35,329 nucleotides of DNA from Ruminococcus sp. Lineage in GTDB: Bacteria; Bacillota; Clostridia; Oscillospirales; Ruminococcaceae. This document shows positions 10,591-33,757 of this stretch, piece after piece; the stretch's first letter is position 1, and each line of letters begins with the position of its first letter. The notes under the pieces were generated by a model. That model had not been told where the DNA came from, ran no database searches, and worked only from the letters and a program-made list of their open reading frames with translations. Position numbers and translations under genes: made by a program. The stretch covers positions 1 through 35,329 of the forward strand of contig JAFTPG010000048.1 in NCBI GenBank assembly GCA_017463375.1, read 5' to 3'.

Positions 10591-10758
10591 TTAGAGCGTG
10601 TTCACATAAAAATATAACATATGTCTTTTCGGCAAAATATCATGCATACTGCGTTAAAAATCCTTGCAGTGCGACAGCACGCCTGTGGATTTTTGCCTTG
10701 CCTGCGTGAAATTTATGCTCGAAAATCCGCATATTTATTTTATGTGAACACGCTCTAA
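10591..10758 (+). repeat. Structured repeat family R2, copy 1 (MITE-like)
   Basis: 168 bp bounded by a perfect 21 bp inverted repeat (10591-10611 with 10738-10758; AGAGCGTGTTCACATAAAA and complement). The core is shared with 26180-26342 and with the reverse of 27567-27729: TTTCGGCAAAATAT near the left arm, TTGCAGTGCGACAGCACG in the middle and GCTCGAAAATCCGCATA near the right arm. The middle forms GTGC-GACA-GCAC, flanked by AAAAATCC/GGATTTTT. The copies align without gaps over about 107 core bases. No transposase is present and no clear target duplication is visible. It lies in the 474 bp gap upstream of nadB, 147 bp from its promoter; the rest of that gap shows only an ATTCAGGG/CCCTGAAT inverted repeat (10801-10851). 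Confidence 0.85.
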
Positions 10759-23627: not shown

Positions 23628-23767
23628 TATTGAGGGAGGACCCTTTTGAAAAAGGGTCCTCCCTCAAACTCCCTCCCTAAAACTCTTAATTAAAAATCCC
23701 CAATAGGGTCGTATGACCCTATTGGGGATTTTTGACTAAAAGTCTTTGGAAAGGGGTCTGGGGAAGA
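23628..23767 (-). repeat. Modular hairpin repeat, family R1, copy B
   Basis: Reverse-orientation copy of 1-139. Positions 23741-23767 equal the first 27 bases of copy A. Positions about 23628-23684 equal its right flank with one extra base, giving here a perfect 18 bp stem (23630-23647 with 23650-23667, loop GA). The centre (23692-23733) is a 19 bp stem with loop GTAT, AAAAATCCCCAATAGGGTC and complement. It is 42 nt long like copy A's palindrome but of different sequence. It lies in the 269 bp gap between tuf and serA; the remaining sequence holds only the tuf terminator and a short AACCTTTC/GAAAGGTT hairpin (near 23767-23786). Confidence 0.85.
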
Positions 23768-23809
23768 ACCTTTCTTCAGAAAGGTTTTCACCAGCAGCCT
23801 GCGAGAAAA

Positions 23810-25069: not shown

Positions 25070-26152
25070 TTAAGCGTTCTCTTCCTCGAACTTCTTCATG
25101 AAAGCAACGAGAGCCTCAACACCCTCGATCGGCATAGCATTGTAGATAGAAGCACGCATACCGCCGACAGATCTGTGACCCTTGAGGTTTTCGAGACCAG
25201 CAGCCTTAGCCTCCTTAACGAACTTAGCGTCAAGCTCGTCATTTCCTGTAACGAAAGGAACATTCATGAGTGAACGATCCTCCTTAGCAACAGTACCCTT
25301 GAAGAGCTTGCTGTTGTCGAGGAAATCATAGAGGATAGCAGCCTTCTTCTCGTTGAGAGCCTTCATAGCTTCGAGACCGCCCATCTTCTTGAGCCACTTG
25401 AACACCTTGCCGCAGATATAGATGCCGTATGTAGGGGGAGTATTGTAGAGAGAATCGTTATCAGCCTGAGTTTTCCACTTGAGCATTGTAGGAGTTCCGG
25501 CAAGAACGTCATCACGGATGAGATCTTCACGGATGATAGCGATTACAACGCCTGCGGGACCTACATTCTTCTGAACGCCGCCATAGATAACGCCGTACTT
25601 AGTAACGTCAACAGGCTCTGAGAGGAAGCAGGAGGAAACGTCAGAAACGAGCTCCTTGCCCTTTGTGTTGGGGAGAGTCTTGAACTTTGTACCATAGATA
25701 GTGTTGTTCTCGCAGATATAAACGTAGTCTGCGTCCTCGGGGATATCAAGGTCGGAGCAATCGGGAATATAAGAGAATGTCTTATCAGCGGAAGAAGCGA
25801 CAGCAACAGCCTCGCCGTACATCTGAGCCTCCTGATAAGCCTTCTTAGCCCACTGACCAGTAATGATATAAGCAGCCTTCTTGTTCTTCATGAGATTCAT
25901 GGGAACTGCTGCAAACTGCTGTGAAGCACCGCCCTGAAGGAAAAGAACCTTATAGTTGTCGGGAATATTCATGAGATCACGGAGATCCTGTTCAGCTTCC
26001 TTGATAATAGTATCATAAGCCTTTGAACGGTGGGACATCTCCATAACGGACATACCAGTGCCCTTGTAATCCATCATTTCGTCAGCAGCCTCTCTGAGAA
26101 CCTCCTCAGGGAGAACGGCAGGACCTGCGCTGAAGTTGTAAACTCTGCTCAT
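25070..26152 (-). CDS. serC: Phosphoserine aminotransferase
   Basis: 360 residues from ATG 26152 (GGAGG with 8-base spacing). An open frame continues upstream to 26383 only because it runs through the R2 repeat; those extra 77 residues are not part of the protein. SerC is a PLP enzyme that converts 3-phosphohydroxypyruvate to phosphoserine. The family start is VYNFSAGPAVLPEEVL. GGASQQFAAVPMNL (74-87) binds phosphate, the PLP lysine is K195 (YGGVQKNVGPAG), and the late HRSVGGMRASIYNA motif is present. It is transcribed from the promoter at 26389-26417 with a leader of about 230 bases, then serA. Confidence 0.95.
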   Translation of the reverse strand: MSRVYNFSAGPAVLPEEVLREAADEMMDYKGTGMSVMEMSHRSKAYDTIIKEAEQDLRDLMNIPDNYKVLFLQGGASQQFAAVPMNLMKNKKAAYIITGQWAKKAYQEAQMYGEAVAVASSADKTFSYIPDCSDLDIPEDADYVYICENNTIYGTKFKTLPNTKGKELVSDVSSCFLSEPVDVTKYGVIYGGVQKNVGPAGVVIAIIREDLIRDDVLAGTPTMLKWKTQADNDSLYNTPPTYGIYICGKVFKWLKKMGGLEAMKALNEKKAAILYDFLDNSKLFKGTVAKEDRSLMNVPFVTGNDELDAKFVKEAKAAGLENLKGHRSVGGMRASIYNAMPIEGVEALVAFMKKFEEENA

Positions 26153-26179
26153 AATAAAAACCTCCAATATAAATATATG

Positions 26180-26342
26180 AGAACTTGTTCTCATAGAATA
26201 CTGCACCCGTCTTTTCGGCAAATTTCGTTGTTGACTGTGTTGAAAACACTTGACATGCGACAGCATGCCTGCGCATTTTCGCCTTGTCACCAACAAAATT
26301 CTGCTCGAAAATCCGCATACATCTTCTATGAGAACAAGTTCT
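26180..26342 (+). repeat. Structured repeat family R2, copy 2, inside the serC leader
   Basis: 163 bp bounded by a perfect 19 bp inverted repeat (26180-26198 with 26324-26342; AGAACTTGTTCTCATAGAA and complement). The arms differ in sequence from those of copy 1 yet still pair. The central hairpin is CATGC-GACA-GCATG, enclosed by GAAAA/TTTTC. It shares TTTCGGCAAATTTCG and GCTCGAAAATCCGCATA with the other copies. It lies between the serC promoter and start codon, so it is transcribed (as its complement, with loop TGTC) in the 5' untranslated region. Confidence 0.85.
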
Positions 26343-26388
26343 GAAAAATGCAGGCGAAGTCCGCCTGTATAATTACAATACACTAATA

Positions 26389-26417
26389 ATTATACTATTT
26401 TTCGGGCTGCAAGTCAA
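26389..26417 (-). promoter_or_regulatory. serC-serA promoter
   Basis: On the minus strand, TTGACT (26417-26412), 17 bp, TATAAT (26394-26389). Directly downstream the leader shows CAGGCG-GACTT-CGCCTG followed by CATTTTT (26346-26367), a terminator-like hairpin, and then repeat R2 copy 2. The stretch from 26418 to 26751 has no gene and no other clear signal. Confidence 0.8.
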
Positions 26418-26751
26418 TAAAAACGGGAAATTTTTTCAAATATCCGTGAAAAACGGGCTTATCTGTAAACGGAGGGTAACAAAGAGCCATGCTGTATGAC
26501 TTGACCGGTTTTGATAGTGGGAAAAATATGAAATCAGTATAAATGGATAAGAAGTATACTGTCGGTATAATTCTTGCAGCATAAAGGAATATCTTTAGTT
26601 ATATCCACCATATATTCACAATCTTCGGTATCGGGAATAGGAAAATACTGTAAAACCGCAGTTAACCTAACAGCGGCTGTTGTGAAATTCGTACAAATGG
26701 GCGGAGTTTTTTACAGTTTTTTGCTTGATTTGTAGAATTTACAAAATGTAA

Positions 26752-26780
26752 TTGACATCATCGGACAAGTATGCTAAAAT
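26752..26780 (+). promoter_or_regulatory. Promoter of the sugar-phosphate transferase gene
   Basis: TTGACA (26752-26757), 17 bp, TAAAAT (26775-26780). It overlaps an in-frame ATG at 26771, which therefore cannot be the translation start. Confidence 0.82.
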
Positions 26781-26821
26781 GTTGTAAACGGGCAGAGTGT
26801 ATCTATTTTAAGGAGGAGATT

Positions 26822-27520
26822 GTGTTGTACCAGACTAATCTTGCTGAATCTGTCTGCCGCAGTGAACAGATTAAAGTCAGCACCAATAAGCTCGCCGAAA
26901 ATGTCAGAAGAAGAAAGCTCTACTATTTCATGAAGCGTATTTTTGATTTCACAGCAGCTCTTGTGGCTCTTGTTTTTCTCAGTCCGCTTTTTTTAATTAT
27001 ATCTTTAATCATTTTTATCGACGACCCTCATGGAAGCCCGTTGTTTGTGCAGGAACGCGTCGGTAAAAATAATAAAATCTTCAGATTCTATAAATTCAGA
27101 ACCATGGTGGTCAATGCCGAAGCCATGCTCGACACGCTTCAGGATCAGAACGAAAAGGATGGTCCTGTTTTCAAGATAAAAAATGACCCCAGAATTACCA
27201 GAATCGGTGGATTTTTAAGAAGAACAAGCCTTGATGAGCTGCCCCAGCTGCTGAATATCATAAAAGGCGATATGAGCGTTGTCGGACCTCGTCCGGCTCT
27301 TCCGAAAGAGGTTGAGCAGTATTCGTTTTTCCACAGTCAGAGGCTTCTCGTTAAGCCCGGACTTACCTGCTACTGGCAGGCGTCCAAAAATCGTGACAAA
27401 ATAAGCTTTGAAGACTGGATGGCTCTTGATGTGAAGTACATAGAGGAACAGTGTATGTCTCTCGATATCAAGTTGATTTTCAAAACGATCGCCGCAGTTT
27501 TCACTTGCCAGGGAAGCTAA
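26822..27520 (+). CDS. Bacterial sugar transferase (polyprenyl phosphate sugar-1-phosphate transferase)
   Basis: 232 residues if GTG 26822 is used; TTG 26825 is equally well spaced from AAGGAGG at 26810-26816. An ATG at 26771 lies inside the promoter and is excluded. The enzyme moves a sugar-1-phosphate from a nucleotide sugar to undecaprenyl phosphate, starting a surface polysaccharide or glycan. It shows KRIFDFTAALVALVFLSPLF (a single re-entrant membrane segment, about 38-66), QERVGKNNKIFRFYKFRTM, the catalytic Asp-Glu dyad LDELPQ (D138, E139), and VVGPRPALP with VKPGLTCYW. It is the minimal PglC/WcaJ-core form without the extra N-terminal helices. No glycosyltransferase cluster surrounds it. 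Confidence 0.9.
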   Translation: MLYQTNLAESVCRSEQIKVSTNKLAENVRRRKLYYFMKRIFDFTAALVALVFLSPLFLIISLIIFIDDPHGSPLFVQERVGKNNKIFRFYKFRTMVVNAEAMLDTLQDQNEKDGPVFKIKNDPRITRIGGFLRRTSLDELPQLLNIIKGDMSVVGPRPALPKEVEQYSFFHSQRLLVKPGLTCYWQASKNRDKISFEDWMALDVKYIEEQCMSLDIKLIFKTIAAVFTCQGS

Positions 27521-27523
27521 TTG

Positions 27524-27556
27524 AAAAGCCTGTTGCTATATGCAACAGGCTTTTTT
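27524..27556. terminator. Bidirectional terminator
   Basis: AAAAGCCTGTTGC pairs with GCAACAGGCTTTT across TATAT, with T-runs on both strands. It ends the sugar transferase gene and, from the other side, the dockerin gene after repeat R2 copy 3. Confidence 0.9.
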
Positions 27557-27566
27557 AATGGATCTT

Positions 27567-27729
27567 AGAACCTTTCTTCACAAGAAATATGTATGGATTT
27601 TCGAGCATAATTTTGTTGCAGACAAGGCGAAAATGCGTAGGAGGGCTGTCGCCCTGCAAGGATTTTTAACGCAGTATGCGGCGAAATTTGCCGAAAATAC
27701 ATGCGTGTTTCTCTGTGAAGACAGGTTCT
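27567..27729 (-). repeat. Structured repeat family R2, copy 3, 3' of the Ig-domain dockerin gene
   Basis: About 163 bp, reverse orientation relative to copies 1 and 2. The ends are imperfect inverted repeats (AGAACCTTTCTTCACAAG at the left and AGAACCTGTCTTCACAGA when the right end is read on the minus strand). On the minus strand the central hairpin is AGGGC-GACA-GCCCT, and the core TTTCGGCAAATTTCGCCGCA...TGCGTTAAAAATCC is nearly that of copy 1. It sits between the stop codon of the minus-strand gene (27734) and the shared terminator, so it would be transcribed as part of the 3' untranslated region. Confidence 0.82.
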
Positions 27730-27733
27730 TATC

Positions 27734-29839
27734 TTAGAGCATAGACTCCGGAAGACCTGAAACAAGCTGAGCAAGCTTCTTCTGAACTGCAAGAGCGTCC
27801 ATATTGCTGAGACCGTCTCCGCGCTGGTAAACGTCAGCAGCGTTGATCTCATCTTCCGTCATCGGATATTTAGCTGAATCGGTAACATAAGTCATGATTT
27901 TTACAGCGTCGTTGATATTGATTTCTCCGCTGAGGTCAGCGTCTCCGTAGAGGAATCCGACTACCGTTACATTGCACTCACATACAGTGTTTCCGACAAC
28001 TGCGTAGATCACAGCTGTACCGCTGCCGACAGCTGTTACTGTACCATTTGAAACTGTAGCTACGCTTGTGTTGTCTGTCAGCCAAGTAACTGTCTCGCCG
28101 TCAGGCACGTTCAATACTGTGAGAAGAGCTGAATCCCCCGGTGTAAGAGTGAGCTTTGTCGGGAGTATCGACGGTGAACCTGACGGAGCTGTCGTCTCGG
28201 AAATCGTGAAAGTCACTGAGTCGCTTGCAGTGCCTGCCTGTGAATTCTTAACCTTAGCAGTAATTGTAACTGTACCATATCCGACGATCTTTACTCTGTT
28301 GTCGCTGAGGATCATCGCAATTGCTTCATCGCTCGTTGACCATGTTATGGAGTTTATGTTCTCGCCGGTGTATTCGATATTGAACACATTGAGCGCATAC
28401 AGCAGTGAAGCGTCAGGCTCGATAAGCTCGATAGTCGGCGGCGGCTCGACCGTGAAGGTCACAGAGTCAGTCATACCATAATAATTGTTCTGAGCTTCAG
28501 CACTTATCGTTACTGTTCCGCTGCCAACTATTGTAACTTTGCCATAGCTGTCAACAGTTGCAACGCCTGTATTATCTGATGACCAATAAATATAATCGTA
28601 ATCATAAGCTACATAATCCAATTCAAAAACGTTACCTATACATAAATCAGAAGAGGACGGTGAAGAAAGGCTGATATAAGCATAAGGAGGAGGTTCAGTT
28701 GTCGTCAACTGTCCCACGCAAACATAAAATGTTATGCTGTCTGACCAATAACTATTCCTAGCAGTTATAGTGATCGTAAATTCCTGCACATAATATGTGC
28801 TTTCACAGTATACAGTAACTTGTCCATTTTCATCAACAGTTGCAACAGATGGATCACTTGATTCCCAGCTTGTGGGCACTCCGTAGCTGCTGTTGTAGTG
28901 TGAGTAGCTTTCAATGGTAAAGGATTCACTGTTTCCGAATATATAAATCGTTTCACCATCATATGTCCTATCCAAATCAAACGCATAACTAATTGTTGTA
29001 GTTGTAGTTGGCATTGTAGTATAAGCCGCTATACCGACCTCAAAGGTGATACTGTCGGAATAGTACTCATTTGATGCGGTAATAGTTACTTCAAAATACT
29101 GTTCATACTCGGTACGCTGTGTATATATTCGTACATATCCTTCGCTGTCTACTGACACGACGCCGTTGCTTGACTCCCATTTTGTAGGAGCACCGTTTCC
29201 GGTGTATTCCACTTGAAAAGCCGGAGCGCTGTCAAAATAGCCCCAATAAAAATAATGTCCGTCATAAGTCTTATCAAGCTCGAACTGATAATTCTCAACC
29301 GTAAAGTCCCTAACGGTATAGGTCAGGGAATCCTGTACAACGCTTCCGCTGCTGTAGCCGTAGACCGTGAACGTCACCTCGCCCTCCGCAAGGAGAGTTA
29401 CTGTTCCGTCGGAATCAATGGACGCAATCTCCTCGTCACTTGATGTATACTCAACATAGGAACAGCCGTTCTTAGTTATGGAAAGCGTAAATTCATCTCC
29501 GACATAATAGTCGCCTGTGATTTCATTGATCGAAACCGATGGCTCAGAGGAAAGAAGTCCGGCTTCTTCAATACAGAGCTGCTCACCGATTTCAGTTACT
29601 GCTGTCTGCGGTGCAGCATAGGCATATTCCGTCTTGGGAGCTTCGCTTCCGCTTGCCGTCACGGTAGATGTGCAGATTTCACGCATTCCCCCGCCGTCAA
29701 GCATAAGATTGAGGATATTTCCAGCCGCTTTGCCAAAGGAGCTGACAGAAGCTCCTGCCGATACCAGCGGCACCGATACCGACGATGCCGTAATTACTGC
29801 CGCTGTCAGAGCGACAAGCTTTTTCATAAATTTTCGCAT
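27734..29839 (-). CDS. Secreted multi-Ig-domain (Big_2-like) protein with dockerin
   Basis: 701 residues. The signal peptide is at about 1-29. From about residue 100 on, roughly six Ig-like units of 80-100 residues follow one another. Most carry the bacterial Ig (Big_2) signature 'WxSSDxxVATVDxxGxVT...GxxTIT', for example WSSDNTGVATVDSYGKVTIVGSG. The middle units share a second-level repeat (F[ED]LD[KR]TYDG near their starts). Residues 632-701 are a dockerin: GDADLSGEININDAVKIM and then ADVYQRGDGLSNMDALAVQKKLAQ, the same type as in the next two genes upstream. There is no catalytic domain. It may be an adhesive or carbohydrate-binding cellulosomal component. AAGGAGGTAAATC precedes the ATG. 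It follows the metalloprotease gene after 63 bp with no clear promoter. Confidence 0.88.
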   Translation of the reverse strand: MRKFMKKLVALTAAVITASSVSVPLVSAGASVSSFGKAAGNILNLMLDGGGMREICTSTVTASGSEAPKTEYAYAAPQTAVTEIGEQLCIEEAGLLSSEPSVSINEITGDYYVGDEFTLSITKNGCSYVEYTSSDEEIASIDSDGTVTLLAEGEVTFTVYGYSSGSVVQDSLTYTVRDFTVENYQFELDKTYDGHYFYWGYFDSAPAFQVEYTGNGAPTKWESSNGVVSVDSEGYVRIYTQRTEYEQYFEVTITASNEYYSDSITFEVGIAAYTTMPTTTTTISYAFDLDRTYDGETIYIFGNSESFTIESYSHYNSSYGVPTSWESSDPSVATVDENGQVTVYCESTYYVQEFTITITARNSYWSDSITFYVCVGQLTTTEPPPYAYISLSSPSSSDLCIGNVFELDYVAYDYDYIYWSSDNTGVATVDSYGKVTIVGSGTVTISAEAQNNYYGMTDSVTFTVEPPPTIELIEPDASLLYALNVFNIEYTGENINSITWSTSDEAIAMILSDNRVKIVGYGTVTITAKVKNSQAGTASDSVTFTISETTAPSGSPSILPTKLTLTPGDSALLTVLNVPDGETVTWLTDNTSVATVSNGTVTAVGSGTAVIYAVVGNTVCECNVTVVGFLYGDADLSGEININDAVKIMTYVTDSAKYPMTEDEINAADVYQRGDGLSNMDALAVQKKLAQLVSGLPESML

Positions 29840-29902: not shown

Positions 29903-31588
29903 TTACATATAGGTTTCAGGAAGCTCAGCAATGATCTGTGCAAGCTTCTTCTGAACCGAAAGAGCGTCCATGTTACTGAGACCGTCACCTTTCTGGTAAA
30001 CATCACCGATCTCTATTTCAGCTTCGGTCAGCGGACAGCTCTCCTTGTCTGTAGCGTATGACATAATCTTAACTGCGTCAGAAATTCCAAGCTCTCCGTT
30101 TCCGTCAACGTCTCCCCAGATGATTTCAGTATCGGGAGCACCGCTTTCATAAATCAGAATCACGCTGTCAAGGCTGATTGTGATATCCTCCATAGCTCCG
30201 AGCTCATTGCTCCAAACTCCGGCATAATCCTTGCGGACGAGCATTTCGCCCATTCCCTCTGAAAGGGAAACCGTGAGAACCATCTGACCGTTCTCGTCGA
30301 GTCTGCCCTCCCACGGGAATTCCGTCTGAGTATCGGTGCTCTTGACAACGCCGTAGCCTCCGCCGTGAGCGGCTCCGCTGAACGTAAGCTCGACAGCGTC
30401 CGCACCGTTTGCATTGAAGCTCCACTCGCTGTCGGTCGAGCCGGAAACTACCGCAGCAGGAACTCTTTCAGCTTCGGTGATATCGGAAACAGTTGTTGTG
30501 GTCGTTACGACAGGAGGAGCAGTTGTCGTAACAGTTGTGGTTGTGGTTTCGGTAACGGCAGGAGCTGCACTTTCATCAATGTCAAAGCGACCCTCCTCGT
30601 CCTTGATCTTTGTCCACATATAGCGCAGAAGCCAGCCGTCGAAATTGGTTATTTCTGTTGAGGAGCCAGCCATCATTATGGAAGTTCCGTCGTCGGGGAA
30701 GCCTCCGGGAGGAGGTCCACCCCATTCAGTTCCGCCGCTTGCAGTGCCCTCTTCGCCGTAGTAGTCGGGAATACCGAAGCCGTGTCCTATTTCGTGTTCG
30801 AGAACGTGGACTCCTATTCCGTCGAGCATGTTGAGATAAGCGGTATCTGATAATCTCTGACCCCAGTCGCCGCCGCATCCGCCGATGTCCGGGAATCCGT
30901 ATGTAGCCCACAGATACATATCAAATCTCTTGTCCAGACCGCCGGGATATTCGTAGCTCTCATTCCAGAAATGCTCGGCTCTGGAAAGCTCGGTCGGAGC
31001 GTTCGGGAGCTTATCGGGGATCGTATAGCCATCCTTTGGTGAATCTGCCGAAGCGTCATAGTCTGTGAGATTGGTGTAGATTATTTCATCGGGCTGAGGG
31101 TCTATGATAGAGCTTTCATCGAGCACTGCCCATCCTACAATGTTAACATCCACATAGCTGTAAGGCCAGTTTTCATAGCCTGCAAGCCAGCTGTTCCACG
31201 CATTGATGCTGTCGGAGCAGAGCTGTTCAAACTGCTGACGCTGCTCCGGGGTAATAGACTCATAGGACTGCCATCTTACAACGTAATTGATAGTACCCTT
31301 GCCGTCGATGATCTGGTCAAAGATAGTGTTCCAGCGTCCGGAGGAGGACGCATTTGCGCTTCCGGTTGAGTTTTCTATGGCGATTCTGTTGTTCCATATC
31401 CAATCGGCAGCGTACTGATACTCCTCGGGAAGATCGTCGATAGTGATGCTGCCGGCTGCTTCGGCGGTAATGGGAGTTGATGAGGGGATTTCGATTTTAG
31501 TTTTGCCTGTACCGACCGGAGAAACTGCTGTGGCTGCAAGCAGTGCGGCGCTTACTGCTGCGGCTGTGAGACGGTTTTTCTTGTACAT
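29903..31588 (-). CDS. Secreted dockerin-bearing zinc metalloprotease
   Basis: 561 residues. After a signal peptide (about 1-45), the catalytic region (50-340) holds EHEIGHGFGIPDYYG with zinc ligands H265 and H269, catalytic E266 and probable third ligand D275. SIMMAG (303-308) serves as a Met-turn, giving a metzincin-like HExxHxxGxxD pattern. A Thr-rich linker (346-367) leads to a beta-sandwich module (about 380-482, SEWSFNANGADAVELTFSG...) that may bind carbohydrate. The dockerin is at 492-556 (GDVDGNGELGISDAVKIM, VYQKGDGLSNMDALSVQ). It would work outside the cell, perhaps bound to the cellulosome and cutting plant or scaffold proteins. A terminator-like hairpin separates it from the GH26 gene. 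Confidence 0.88.
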   Translation of the reverse strand: MYKKNRLTAAAVSAALLAATAVSPVGTGKTKIEIPSSTPITAEAAGSITIDDLPEEYQYAADWIWNNRIAIENSTGSANASSSGRWNTIFDQIIDGKGTINYVVRWQSYESITPEQRQQFEQLCSDSINAWNSWLAGYENWPYSYVDVNIVGWAVLDESSIIDPQPDEIIYTNLTDYDASADSPKDGYTIPDKLPNAPTELSRAEHFWNESYEYPGGLDKRFDMYLWATYGFPDIGGCGGDWGQRLSDTAYLNMLDGIGVHVLEHEIGHGFGIPDYYGEEGTASGGTEWGGPPPGGFPDDGTSIMMAGSSTEITNFDGWLLRYMWTKIKDEEGRFDIDESAAPAVTETTTTTVTTTAPPVVTTTTTVSDITEAERVPAAVVSGSTDSEWSFNANGADAVELTFSGAAHGGGYGVVKSTDTQTEFPWEGRLDENGQMVLTVSLSEGMGEMLVRKDYAGVWSNELGAMEDITISLDSVILIYESGAPDTEIIWGDVDGNGELGISDAVKIMSYATDKESCPLTEAEIEIGDVYQKGDGLSNMDALSVQKKLAQIIAELPETYM

Positions 31589-31690: not shown

Positions 31691-33757
31691 TTATTCCGCA
31701 TTACTTTCGGGAAGCCCGCTGAGAAGCTGAGCAAGCTTCTTCTGAATTGATAATGCGTCCATATTGCTTAAACCGTCGCCCTTCTGATATACATCAGCAA
31801 TTTCAATCTGAGCGTCAGTCAGCGGATACTTTTCTTTATCTGTAACGTATGACATGATCTTAACAGCGTCTGAGATGCCAACAACGCCGTCTCCGTCAGC
31901 GTCGCCGTAAACAATGTCCTCGCCGCCATCAGTTGTTGTCGGAACATCAGGTTCTGTAGTCGGTGCAGGAGTTGCAGGCTGAGGATCCTCTCCGCTGAGA
32001 ACATAGAGATTCTCCGGAAGCTCGTCGAGAGTGATACAGTAGTCGCTCTGATATACAGCTGTGAGAGCCTCAGGATCCTGATATCTGTCACTCATGATAT
32101 GATCTGTATACCATGGACAGAAGTAGAGCCAGCCAGCGTCCTCAACGACCATGTTTTCAACTGTAGGAACAGTATCATTCTCAGACATAGCGATCATCTT
32201 GCCGCCGTCAACGAGATCGTAGATATAGTTGAAGATCGAGGAAATAGCGCTGAAATTAGGGCCGCTTGTAAGACCGTCGTCTCTGTTGTTGTCAACATTG
32301 TACTTATCGTAAGCTACGATATCAACGTACTCATCGCCGGGATACCAGTTCTCGGAGTTTGTGTGAGCGTAGCTGTTGTACTCCCAGATAAGGTTGTGGA
32401 GACCGTACTCCTCTGTAAGAGTTGTATAGAGAAGCTTCCAAAGCTCCTTATAAACCTCACAGCCCTGGTCGCCCCACCAGAACCATGCTGTACCGGTGCC
32501 GCCGTATCTGCCCTCGTTACCCTGAGCCTCGTGGAGAGGTCTGAAGATAAGGGGAACGTTGTTTTCCTGAAGGATGAGGAGCTGCTCAGCGAGATCTGCC
32601 ATAGCAAGCTGGAAGTATTCGTATTCCTTTGTACCCTCAATTACAGCGTTTGCAGTATTGAAAGTGCTGTTTGAAGACTGATAATTCTTGTATGTGCATT
32701 CAGTCCAGTCCAGAGCGTCGCCAAGCTCATAATTCTCGAAGTCGATCGGAACGTTGATATGCCATGAAGCTGTAGCGATACCGCCTGTTTCGTTTACCCA
32801 GTCGATACAGCGCTGAGTAGTACCGTCATCCCAGCCGTAGAGGGGGTTATAGTTCATGAAGTCAAAGCCTCTGATAGCAGGAAGCTCGCCTGTGAGATCC
32901 TGGATATACTCGAACTCGAGGTCATAATTAACAGTGCTGTAGTTTCTGTTCTGCTGGTTATAGCTGTACTTCTTGCCCTCGGGGCTTACGCAGTTCCAGA
33001 CAAAGGTTGAGCCGTCGTCAGCTGTTGCAACATCTGCCTCGTTATATGTGTACTCATTGCCGGAGCTGTCGGTAAGAGAACCTGTAGAAGCATTGTAGTT
33101 AAGAGAAATGCTTGACTGATGAGCAGAGCTTCCGCCGCCGTAGATTTCCTGCTGACCTGAAATGGTGTGGTCGCCGTAAACGCTCTTGAGGTATTTCATG
33201 AGAGCCTTTGCCTCGTCGGTAGCCTCAGGGTCAACGAGCGAATCCGTTGCCTTTGAATAGTCGTGGGAAATTGCCTTTGAAATAGTGATGGTATCATAGC
33301 TCGCATAGCCGTACTGCGGCTTGAGGATGATAGTATTGATTCCCTCCTGAAGTCTGAACACACCGATAGTATAATCAGTCCATTCGTCTGCATAAACGAG
33401 ATTGAATACAGTATCTTTGCCGTTTACGCTGATTGTCTGCTCACGGGAATCAGTGCTGAGAACCTGAGTGTAGCTTATATCGATCTGATACATACCCTCC
33501 TCAGGAGCTTCTACCTCGATAGTGATAGGGGATGATGTCAGGTATGCGAAGCCTTCGCCGGAATAACCGGGGAAATAGTGGTCGCTGTAGATAGAAGTCC
33601 ACAGCTCTGCTCCCTCGAGAGTTTCGCATTCTGCGCAGAAAATAACCTCTCCGTCCTCAATCGCAGAAACGGGAGCCGGAAGAGCTGAGAGAGAAACAGC
33701 TGTCATAGCTGCTGCGGCAATCAATGAGAGTGCCTTTTTTAGTGATTTAGCCTTCAT
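31691..33757 (-). CDS. Cellulosomal CBM35-GH26 endo-beta-mannanase (dockerin)
   Basis: 688 residues. Signal peptide 1-32. Residues 38-160 are a CBM35-like module (FCAECETLEGAELW..., YSGEGFAYL, DTITI). The GH26 catalytic domain runs from about 178 to 585. The acid/base Glu is E410 (FRPLHEAQGNEGRYG) and the nucleophile E526 (MIAMSEND), with WFWWGDQG (425-432) and ASWHINVP (330-337) as conserved subsites. GH26 enzymes are mostly beta-1,4-mannanases, so mannan or glucomannan is the best guess; a xylanase of the same family is not excluded. An insert at about 205-275 lengthens the early part. A Pro/Thr linker (591-609) is followed by the dockerin (617-682). AGGAGG precedes the ATG and a promoter is present. 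Confidence 0.93.
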   Translation of the reverse strand: MKAKSLKKALSLIAAAAMTAVSLSALPAPVSAIEDGEVIFCAECETLEGAELWTSIYSDHYFPGYSGEGFAYLTSSPITIEVEAPEEGMYQIDISYTQVLSTDSREQTISVNGKDTVFNLVYADEWTDYTIGVFRLQEGINTIILKPQYGYASYDTITISKAISHDYSKATDSLVDPEATDEAKALMKYLKSVYGDHTISGQQEIYGGGSSAHQSSISLNYNASTGSLTDSSGNEYTYNEADVATADDGSTFVWNCVSPEGKKYSYNQQNRNYSTVNYDLEFEYIQDLTGELPAIRGFDFMNYNPLYGWDDGTTQRCIDWVNETGGIATASWHINVPIDFENYELGDALDWTECTYKNYQSSNSTFNTANAVIEGTKEYEYFQLAMADLAEQLLILQENNVPLIFRPLHEAQGNEGRYGGTGTAWFWWGDQGCEVYKELWKLLYTTLTEEYGLHNLIWEYNSYAHTNSENWYPGDEYVDIVAYDKYNVDNNRDDGLTSGPNFSAISSIFNYIYDLVDGGKMIAMSENDTVPTVENMVVEDAGWLYFCPWYTDHIMSDRYQDPEALTAVYQSDYCITLDELPENLYVLSGEDPQPATPAPTTEPDVPTTTDGGEDIVYGDADGDGVVGISDAVKIMSYVTDKEKYPLTDAQIEIADVYQKGDGLSNMDALSIQKKLAQLLSGLPESNAE

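Follow-up and report, generated by a model that had tools for sequence, protein, structure and literature searches.

IS5-type miniature elements with a conserved and probably strand-specific folded core beneath many terminal inverted repeats

The window, that is the whole stretch of DNA analysed here (35,329 nucleotides of contig JAFTPG010000048.1, Ruminococcus sp.), carries three copies of a short repeated element (Table 1). They lie where a first-pass annotation had placed them, and a repeat search recovers them too. The bounds listed for copies 2 and 3 include the target duplications and replace the narrower ones first given. As had been proposed, the ends of each copy mirror each other, with one mismatch in copy 1, two in copy 2 and five in copy 3 (counted over the first 22 bases inwards from both ends, 3-bp flank included), and compensating changes in the central stem are present in all three. 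Copy 1 folds with z-scores of -10.1 and -9.8 (two strands) as RNA and -8.9 and -7.9 as DNA, in each case with 0 of 200 shuffles as good. Judged by eye, a class-V aminotransferase gene on the opposite strand starts near 26152, with copy 2 just upstream; given a sufficiently long leader of this gene, the minus strand of copy 2 would lie within the transcript. Contig C58 of the same genome (G000:C58) carries copy 3 again with the same 60-base flanks (window 27470-27830), probably as an assembly or strain duplicate. Other repeats are present in the window. Positions 1-129 and 23639-23785 belong to another palindromic family with 70-nt arms at 90%, and three direct repeats of about 200 nt (27745-27946, 29914-30115 and 31705-31906; 68-75%) lie at the ends of consecutive genes, and Big_2 domains are present in the first of these. 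Rfam gave 0 matches in the window at the gathering score, and the region 26150-27760 gave weak matches at chance level only.

Table 1. Positions of the three elements and of their parts in the window
Feature	Position	Strand	Remarks
Copy 1, whole element	10591..10758	+	Flanks TTA 10591-10593 and TAA 10756-10758, not an identical duplication
Copy 1, left TIR GAGCGTGTTCACATAAAA	10594-10611		Right TIR ends at 10755
Copy 1, core	10622..10736	- (putative fold strand, from the family)	Central stem-loop 10669-10680
Copy 2, whole element	26178..26344	+	TGA/TGA duplication at 26178-26180 and 26342-26344
Copy 2, TIR GAACTTGTTCTCATAGAA	26181-26198		Same as TIR of the decayed IS at G000:C101:16559-17306
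Copy 2, core	26209..26322	-	Central stem-loop from 26254
Copy 3, whole element	27565..27731	-	TTA/TTA (window plus strand) at 27565-27567 and 27729-27731
Copy 3, TIR type			Common to copy 3 and the IS of G140
Copy 3, core	27587..27700	+ (putative fold strand: window plus strand)	Central stem-loop 27642-27655

The family is not limited to the three copies first counted. A BLAST search with copy 1 revealed 23 places in this 2.28-Mb genome, some of them cut by contig ends (28 rows, including reverse or split hits to places already counted). In a BLAST comparison of 60 genomes, 14 (own included) contain the element and all of these belong to the genus; none of the 24 from other families has it. 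The core was searched with a covariance model (R1), which matched 79 of 125 genomes in the genus, 86 of 295 genomes and 51 of 148 genera in the order, and 14 of 398 genomes in the phylum, including 10 from other classes (own genome included throughout); the E-values are rough, with at most 30, 12 and 9 candidates scored per genome at the level of genus, order and phylum. Named carriers among the matches listed are Ruminococcus flavefaciens FD-1 and assemblies of Oscillibacter and Lawsonibacter. An element of the G749 type aligns with a Paenibacillus cellulosilyticus plasmid record (class Bacilli) at 80% over 65% of the query. Among 49 copies inspected from 34 genomes outside the genus, mirrored ends were seen in 44, a few of them weak; the other five lack them under the rule used, some lying close to a contig end. 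The ends are diverse outside the genus (grouped by eye: GGCAACACCGCACAATT, GGAACCTCTGATTAAAT, GGGACTATCAAAAAATAAA, GGACGTGTCTGAAAACTC, AGTACCATGTCAACCC, GGCATACGGGAGTCGAACCC and others). By the same grouping, one core hairpin is found beneath more than 10 types of terminal inverted repeat (TIR), from Ruminococcus to a Paenibacillus-like genome.

Several elements depart from the simple form in that they contain a second, shorter core in opposite orientation. Two cores of opposite orientation are present in each of L351-L353, L356-L359, L361 and L230, the TIRs of which resemble an antisense tRNA T-arm (GGGAGTCGAACCC). A tRNA-derived end was considered for elements of the G305, G155 and G392 type and rejected, since the end is a mirrored TIR. 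L188, L195, L201 and L204 (genomes G064 and G081) are composite, a copy of the miniature element and a second core fragment lying within a longer element with GGCAACACCGCACAAAGCC ends. In G031, similar inserts with GTGCTTCTGCTTCGCAGAG, each about 50 bp long, disrupt three elements (L050, L053, L057) around alignment column 104. Pieces of the element also occur in eight unannotated faecal 'Bacteriophage sp.' records, including MT837732.1 and MT835604.1.

The elements are about 165 bp long, have no coding capacity and carry mirrored ends, as miniature inverted-repeat transposable elements (MITEs) do. Within the genus, the ends read G(A/G)(A/G)... inwards from TNA at both sides. TIRs were detected by the script's rule in 193 of 256 copies, and TNA stands on both sides in 148 of these; in these scorable copies the two TNA triplets are identical in 118, compared with about 40% expected from base usage. 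L051 in G031 contains a second copy nested within it, and this insertion is bounded by a clean TTA duplication. Taken together with the IS5-family partners described below, we consider it rather likely that the elements are non-autonomous MITEs with a TIR match to the IS5 family and a 3-bp TNA target duplication, their movement being read from these sequence marks. The first-pass annotation had offered a structured RNA or a MITE; the MITE part of this proposal is borne out by the TIRs, the TNA duplications, the nested insertion and the IS5 partners, and an RNA fold is likely too. Its observation of mirrored ends is correct, however folding is not needed to explain them: the ends co-vary mainly because both TIRs must fit one transposase.

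A search for a transposase gene whose substrate shares the core had been suggested as a check, and IS5-family elements with matching TIRs were indeed found for several TIR types. Of the TIR-pattern matches listed for this genome, just one pair faces inwards at a spacing of 0.6-2 kb, C101:16559-17306. It has exactly the TIR of copy 2 and encloses a decayed IS5-type transposase that lies in several frames. A piece of this decayed IS matches PF01609 above the cut-off and PF13340 (DUF4096) just below it, and the C-terminal piece of the transposase has relatives in 18 of 125 genomes of the genus (own included). Single ORFs from L108, L109 and L117 match NF033580 below the cut-off set for a whole protein. 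Among the loci with such C-terminal relatives, those of G144 and G126 have GAACYTGTCCACATAG ends; G144 contains both a MITE and an IS with identical TIRs. The IS locus of G140 has GAACYTGTCTTCACA ends, which is the type of copy 3, and those of G099 and G003 have GAGCCTGTTCAGTATCTTTT ends, also present on MITEs of G018. For the TIR of copy 1 no IS partner was seen in six genomes, and none was seen for the GGGTGTGTTGACACTAA TIR. One locus of G018, L079, had been taken as an IS carrying the core; this was rejected, as inspection by eye shows a MITE into which another IS has inserted. The inserted IS (L079:1003-2440) is about 1.4 kb long and lies inside the MITE TIR, with an apparent 10-bp target duplication (by eye).

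Beneath the TIRs lies a core of about 115 bp, composed of a hairpin with covarying stems and two conserved purine-rich internal loops below the stem-loop (minus strand: ACAAGGC / AACGCAG and GCAGG / CAAG). Across 46 copies, double changes were seen at 49 of the 69 pairs, and the covariation score is 0.368 compared with 0.067-0.114 for slid pairings. Alignments of the core comprise 44 of the 46, L067 and L056 being left out. The analysis was extended to 131 distinct cores, each close to full length and with 40 bases of flank at either end, 126 from the genus and five from outside it (L222, L223, L224, L228 and L229, also among the 49 outside copies). On the tree of these cores, 134 double changes from one Watson-Crick pair to another were reconstructed, whereas an independent-column simulation on the same tree gave 16.6 ± 4.9 (maximum 27 in 30 runs). 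Selection on folding, as first proposed, is thus upheld. The first-pass annotation had named insignificant covariation and absence of further copies as outcomes that would count against it; we find significant covariation in our own tree simulation, and the covariance-model search that it recommended found further copies in related genomes. The central loop GACA, described as invariant, is not so outside the window: GACA is found in 66 of the 131 distinct copies, and GTCA is the next most frequent with 31. Among 50 matches from outside the genus, identity is mostly 0.7-0.99 in the loops (minus strand CAAGGC, GCAGG, CAAG and AACGCAGT), 0.3-0.5 in the stem that separates both loops and mostly 0.7-0.9 in the terminal stem-loop, in an alignment that was fitted to the genus-derived model. 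Mean conservation outside the genus is equal for unpaired (0.63) and paired (0.64) positions. Given these equal means and the model-fitted alignment, the contrast between loops and stems is only local.

The strand on which the core folds was addressed by the type of mismatch within stems. A G·U pair on the minus strand appears as A·C on the plus strand. Structures were predicted without G·U on both strands, and lone mismatches flanked by pairs were counted; as both strands were folded, each site is counted about twice. A·C and G·T (plus strand) stand at 164:27 in the set of 131 and at 112:16 in the 49 outside copies, two sets that overlap by five, which is a 6-7 times excess of A·C over the reverse type. 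By genome the ratio is 27:2 (p = 1.6e-6), against roughly 1:1 expected from base composition. The TIRs served as a control and show a skew as well, with an A·C to G·T ratio of 65:36. Events on the tree give 98:52 (p = 2e-4 against equality) compared with 78:66 in the simulation, and transitions in unpaired columns lean the opposite way (70:116). Folding energy is lower on the minus strand in 45 of 46 copies and in 128 of 131; outside the genus this holds for 47 of 49 copies and for each of the 34 genomes. Of the difference of -6.0 kcal/mol in a sample of 40 copies, dinucleotide shuffles recover -3.9; the corresponding values outside the genus are -8.0 and -3.2. The folding z-score is lower on the minus strand in 27 of the 40 and in 41 of the 49 outside copies. 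Composition hence explains about two thirds of the energy difference in the genus and about two fifths outside, and the difference was rejected as proof of an RNA. As it is largely compositional, we relied on the mismatch types instead. For most outside copies a minus-strand model (R2) scores above the plus-strand R1 (by eye). From the mismatch asymmetry we infer that the selected fold probably forms on the single minus strand. The orientation first described is the opposite one and is probably not that in which the fold is made; copy 1 departs from this pattern in that both its strands fold about equally. Folding of the minus single strand is, as judged from the sequences, probably under selection. 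RNA would be the simplest carrier of this fold, and G·T pairs would form in single-stranded DNA too.

No preference in orientation relative to tandem genes was observed, with 48:40 among those 143 of 247 copies that have a gene no more than 300 bp away on each side. An apparent bias of 34:20 in the first 131 copies faded to this ratio in the larger set, and other distances gave 35:32 (150 bp) and 66:53 (600 bp) for the 247 copies. The fold is thus not tied to host transcripts by position.

This lack of gene orientation would suit a pure DNA palindrome, in which symmetry arises from the matching of TIRs and from template switching around a functionless core. A hairpin that spans the full length of the element and the ability of both strands to fold fit this explanation as well, however it does not account for stem mismatches as strand-asymmetric as those counted above, nor for loop letters that are kept outside the genus while the intervening stem varies. 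We therefore regard it as unlikely. Somewhat less probable still is that the folded strand is single-stranded DNA, formed during replication, conjugation or uptake and aiding the survival or movement of the element. G·T pairs form in RNA and single-stranded DNA alike, hence the mismatch asymmetry fits both, and so does the absence of a preferred orientation to genes; yet IS5-family DDE transposases are not known to make use of a folded single strand, and the TIRs with TNA duplications indicate duplex transposition.

An RNA made from the core might instead help to mobilise the element, for instance as a ligand of the transposase or of a shared host factor. Retention of the core across TIR types and the high copy number are in keeping with this, but such a core would need to suit different transposases, and the IS loci examined contain no core match at E 1e-6, except for the MITE in L079; we hold this role to be improbable to a similar degree. 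It is very improbable that the elements are REP/BIME-like palindromes that owe their movement to a RAYT (Y1) transposase, one of the enzymes suggested in the first-pass annotation. The elements are palindromic and repeated, and the genome has one Y1_Tnp match (IS200/RAYT-type; G000:C71:6793-6903, L385). However, contig C71 with that gene is free of the element, the 23 places all being on other contigs, and the TIRs with TNA duplications and the IS5 partners speak against such an origin.

IS5-family MITEs are likewise short and non-autonomous, with IS5-type TIRs and TNA target duplication. The present family differs from them in that the interior is conserved in sequence and fold across genera, under different TIRs. 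The candidate MRSC-65-2 resembles it as described, with a single long covarying stem, dozens of copies per genome and a location sometimes near transposases (PMC11109978). Its authors class it as a mobile or repeat candidate with a conserved UYCCGG repeat and leave RNA or DNA open (PMC11109978). UYCCGG is found in 3 of the 131 copies and in 1 of the 49 outside cores, never twice; the comparison with that source rests on MRSC-65-2, one among its 250 mobile/repeat candidates. The repeats bcr1-bcr18 of the Bacillus cereus group are intergenic, bcr1-3 being MITE-like, with about half of the copies transcribed; bcr3 correlates with mRNA decay, and bcr10 and bcr18 have conserved structures (PMC3446304). 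As they are described there, no core shared under several TIRs is part of the account (PMC3446304). In other bacteria, the Correia (Neisseria) and ERIC (Yersinia) elements are described as hairpin-forming MITEs that RNase III cleaves or that alter transcript decay (PMC10969869), and it is to this description that the role proposed below is likened. The literature searched contains no account of the present element, which is weak evidence as few subscription papers were covered. We take the family to be a form of IS5-type MITE whose folded core is conserved, probably strand-specific and found beneath many TIRs.

We propose that IS5-family transposases would recognise the TIRs of the MITEs, move them in trans and duplicate a TNA target. 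The divergence of TIRs between subfamilies would then reflect that each pair fits its own transposase, with the core as a second part under separate constraint, retained while the TIRs changed. The folded minus-strand RNA would arise upon transcription of the element. That the core persists under exchanged TIRs in many Firmicutes genera suggests that the fold itself does something. By analogy with the Correia and ERIC elements, it may be a cis-acting RNA, processed or bound by a protein, so that insertions in transcription units could be tolerated; this role is a guess that we put forward tentatively.

The interior of MITEs is often regarded as filler. In the present family the sequence and the fold of the interior are conserved, and no such conservation extends to the ends; this holds in Clostridia and for at least one genome that resembles Paenibacillus. 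It is conceivable, with the same reserve, that one RNA or single-stranded DNA motif is the selected cargo shared by many otherwise unrelated MITEs of Firmicutes, a portable module that would retain its internal loops through changes of TIR and give a mini-transposon an advantage whichever IS moves it. If so, a trait at the RNA level would decide the spread of mini-transposons, and the core would be a concrete motif for structure probing and one to seek in the transcriptomes of gut and rumen bacteria.
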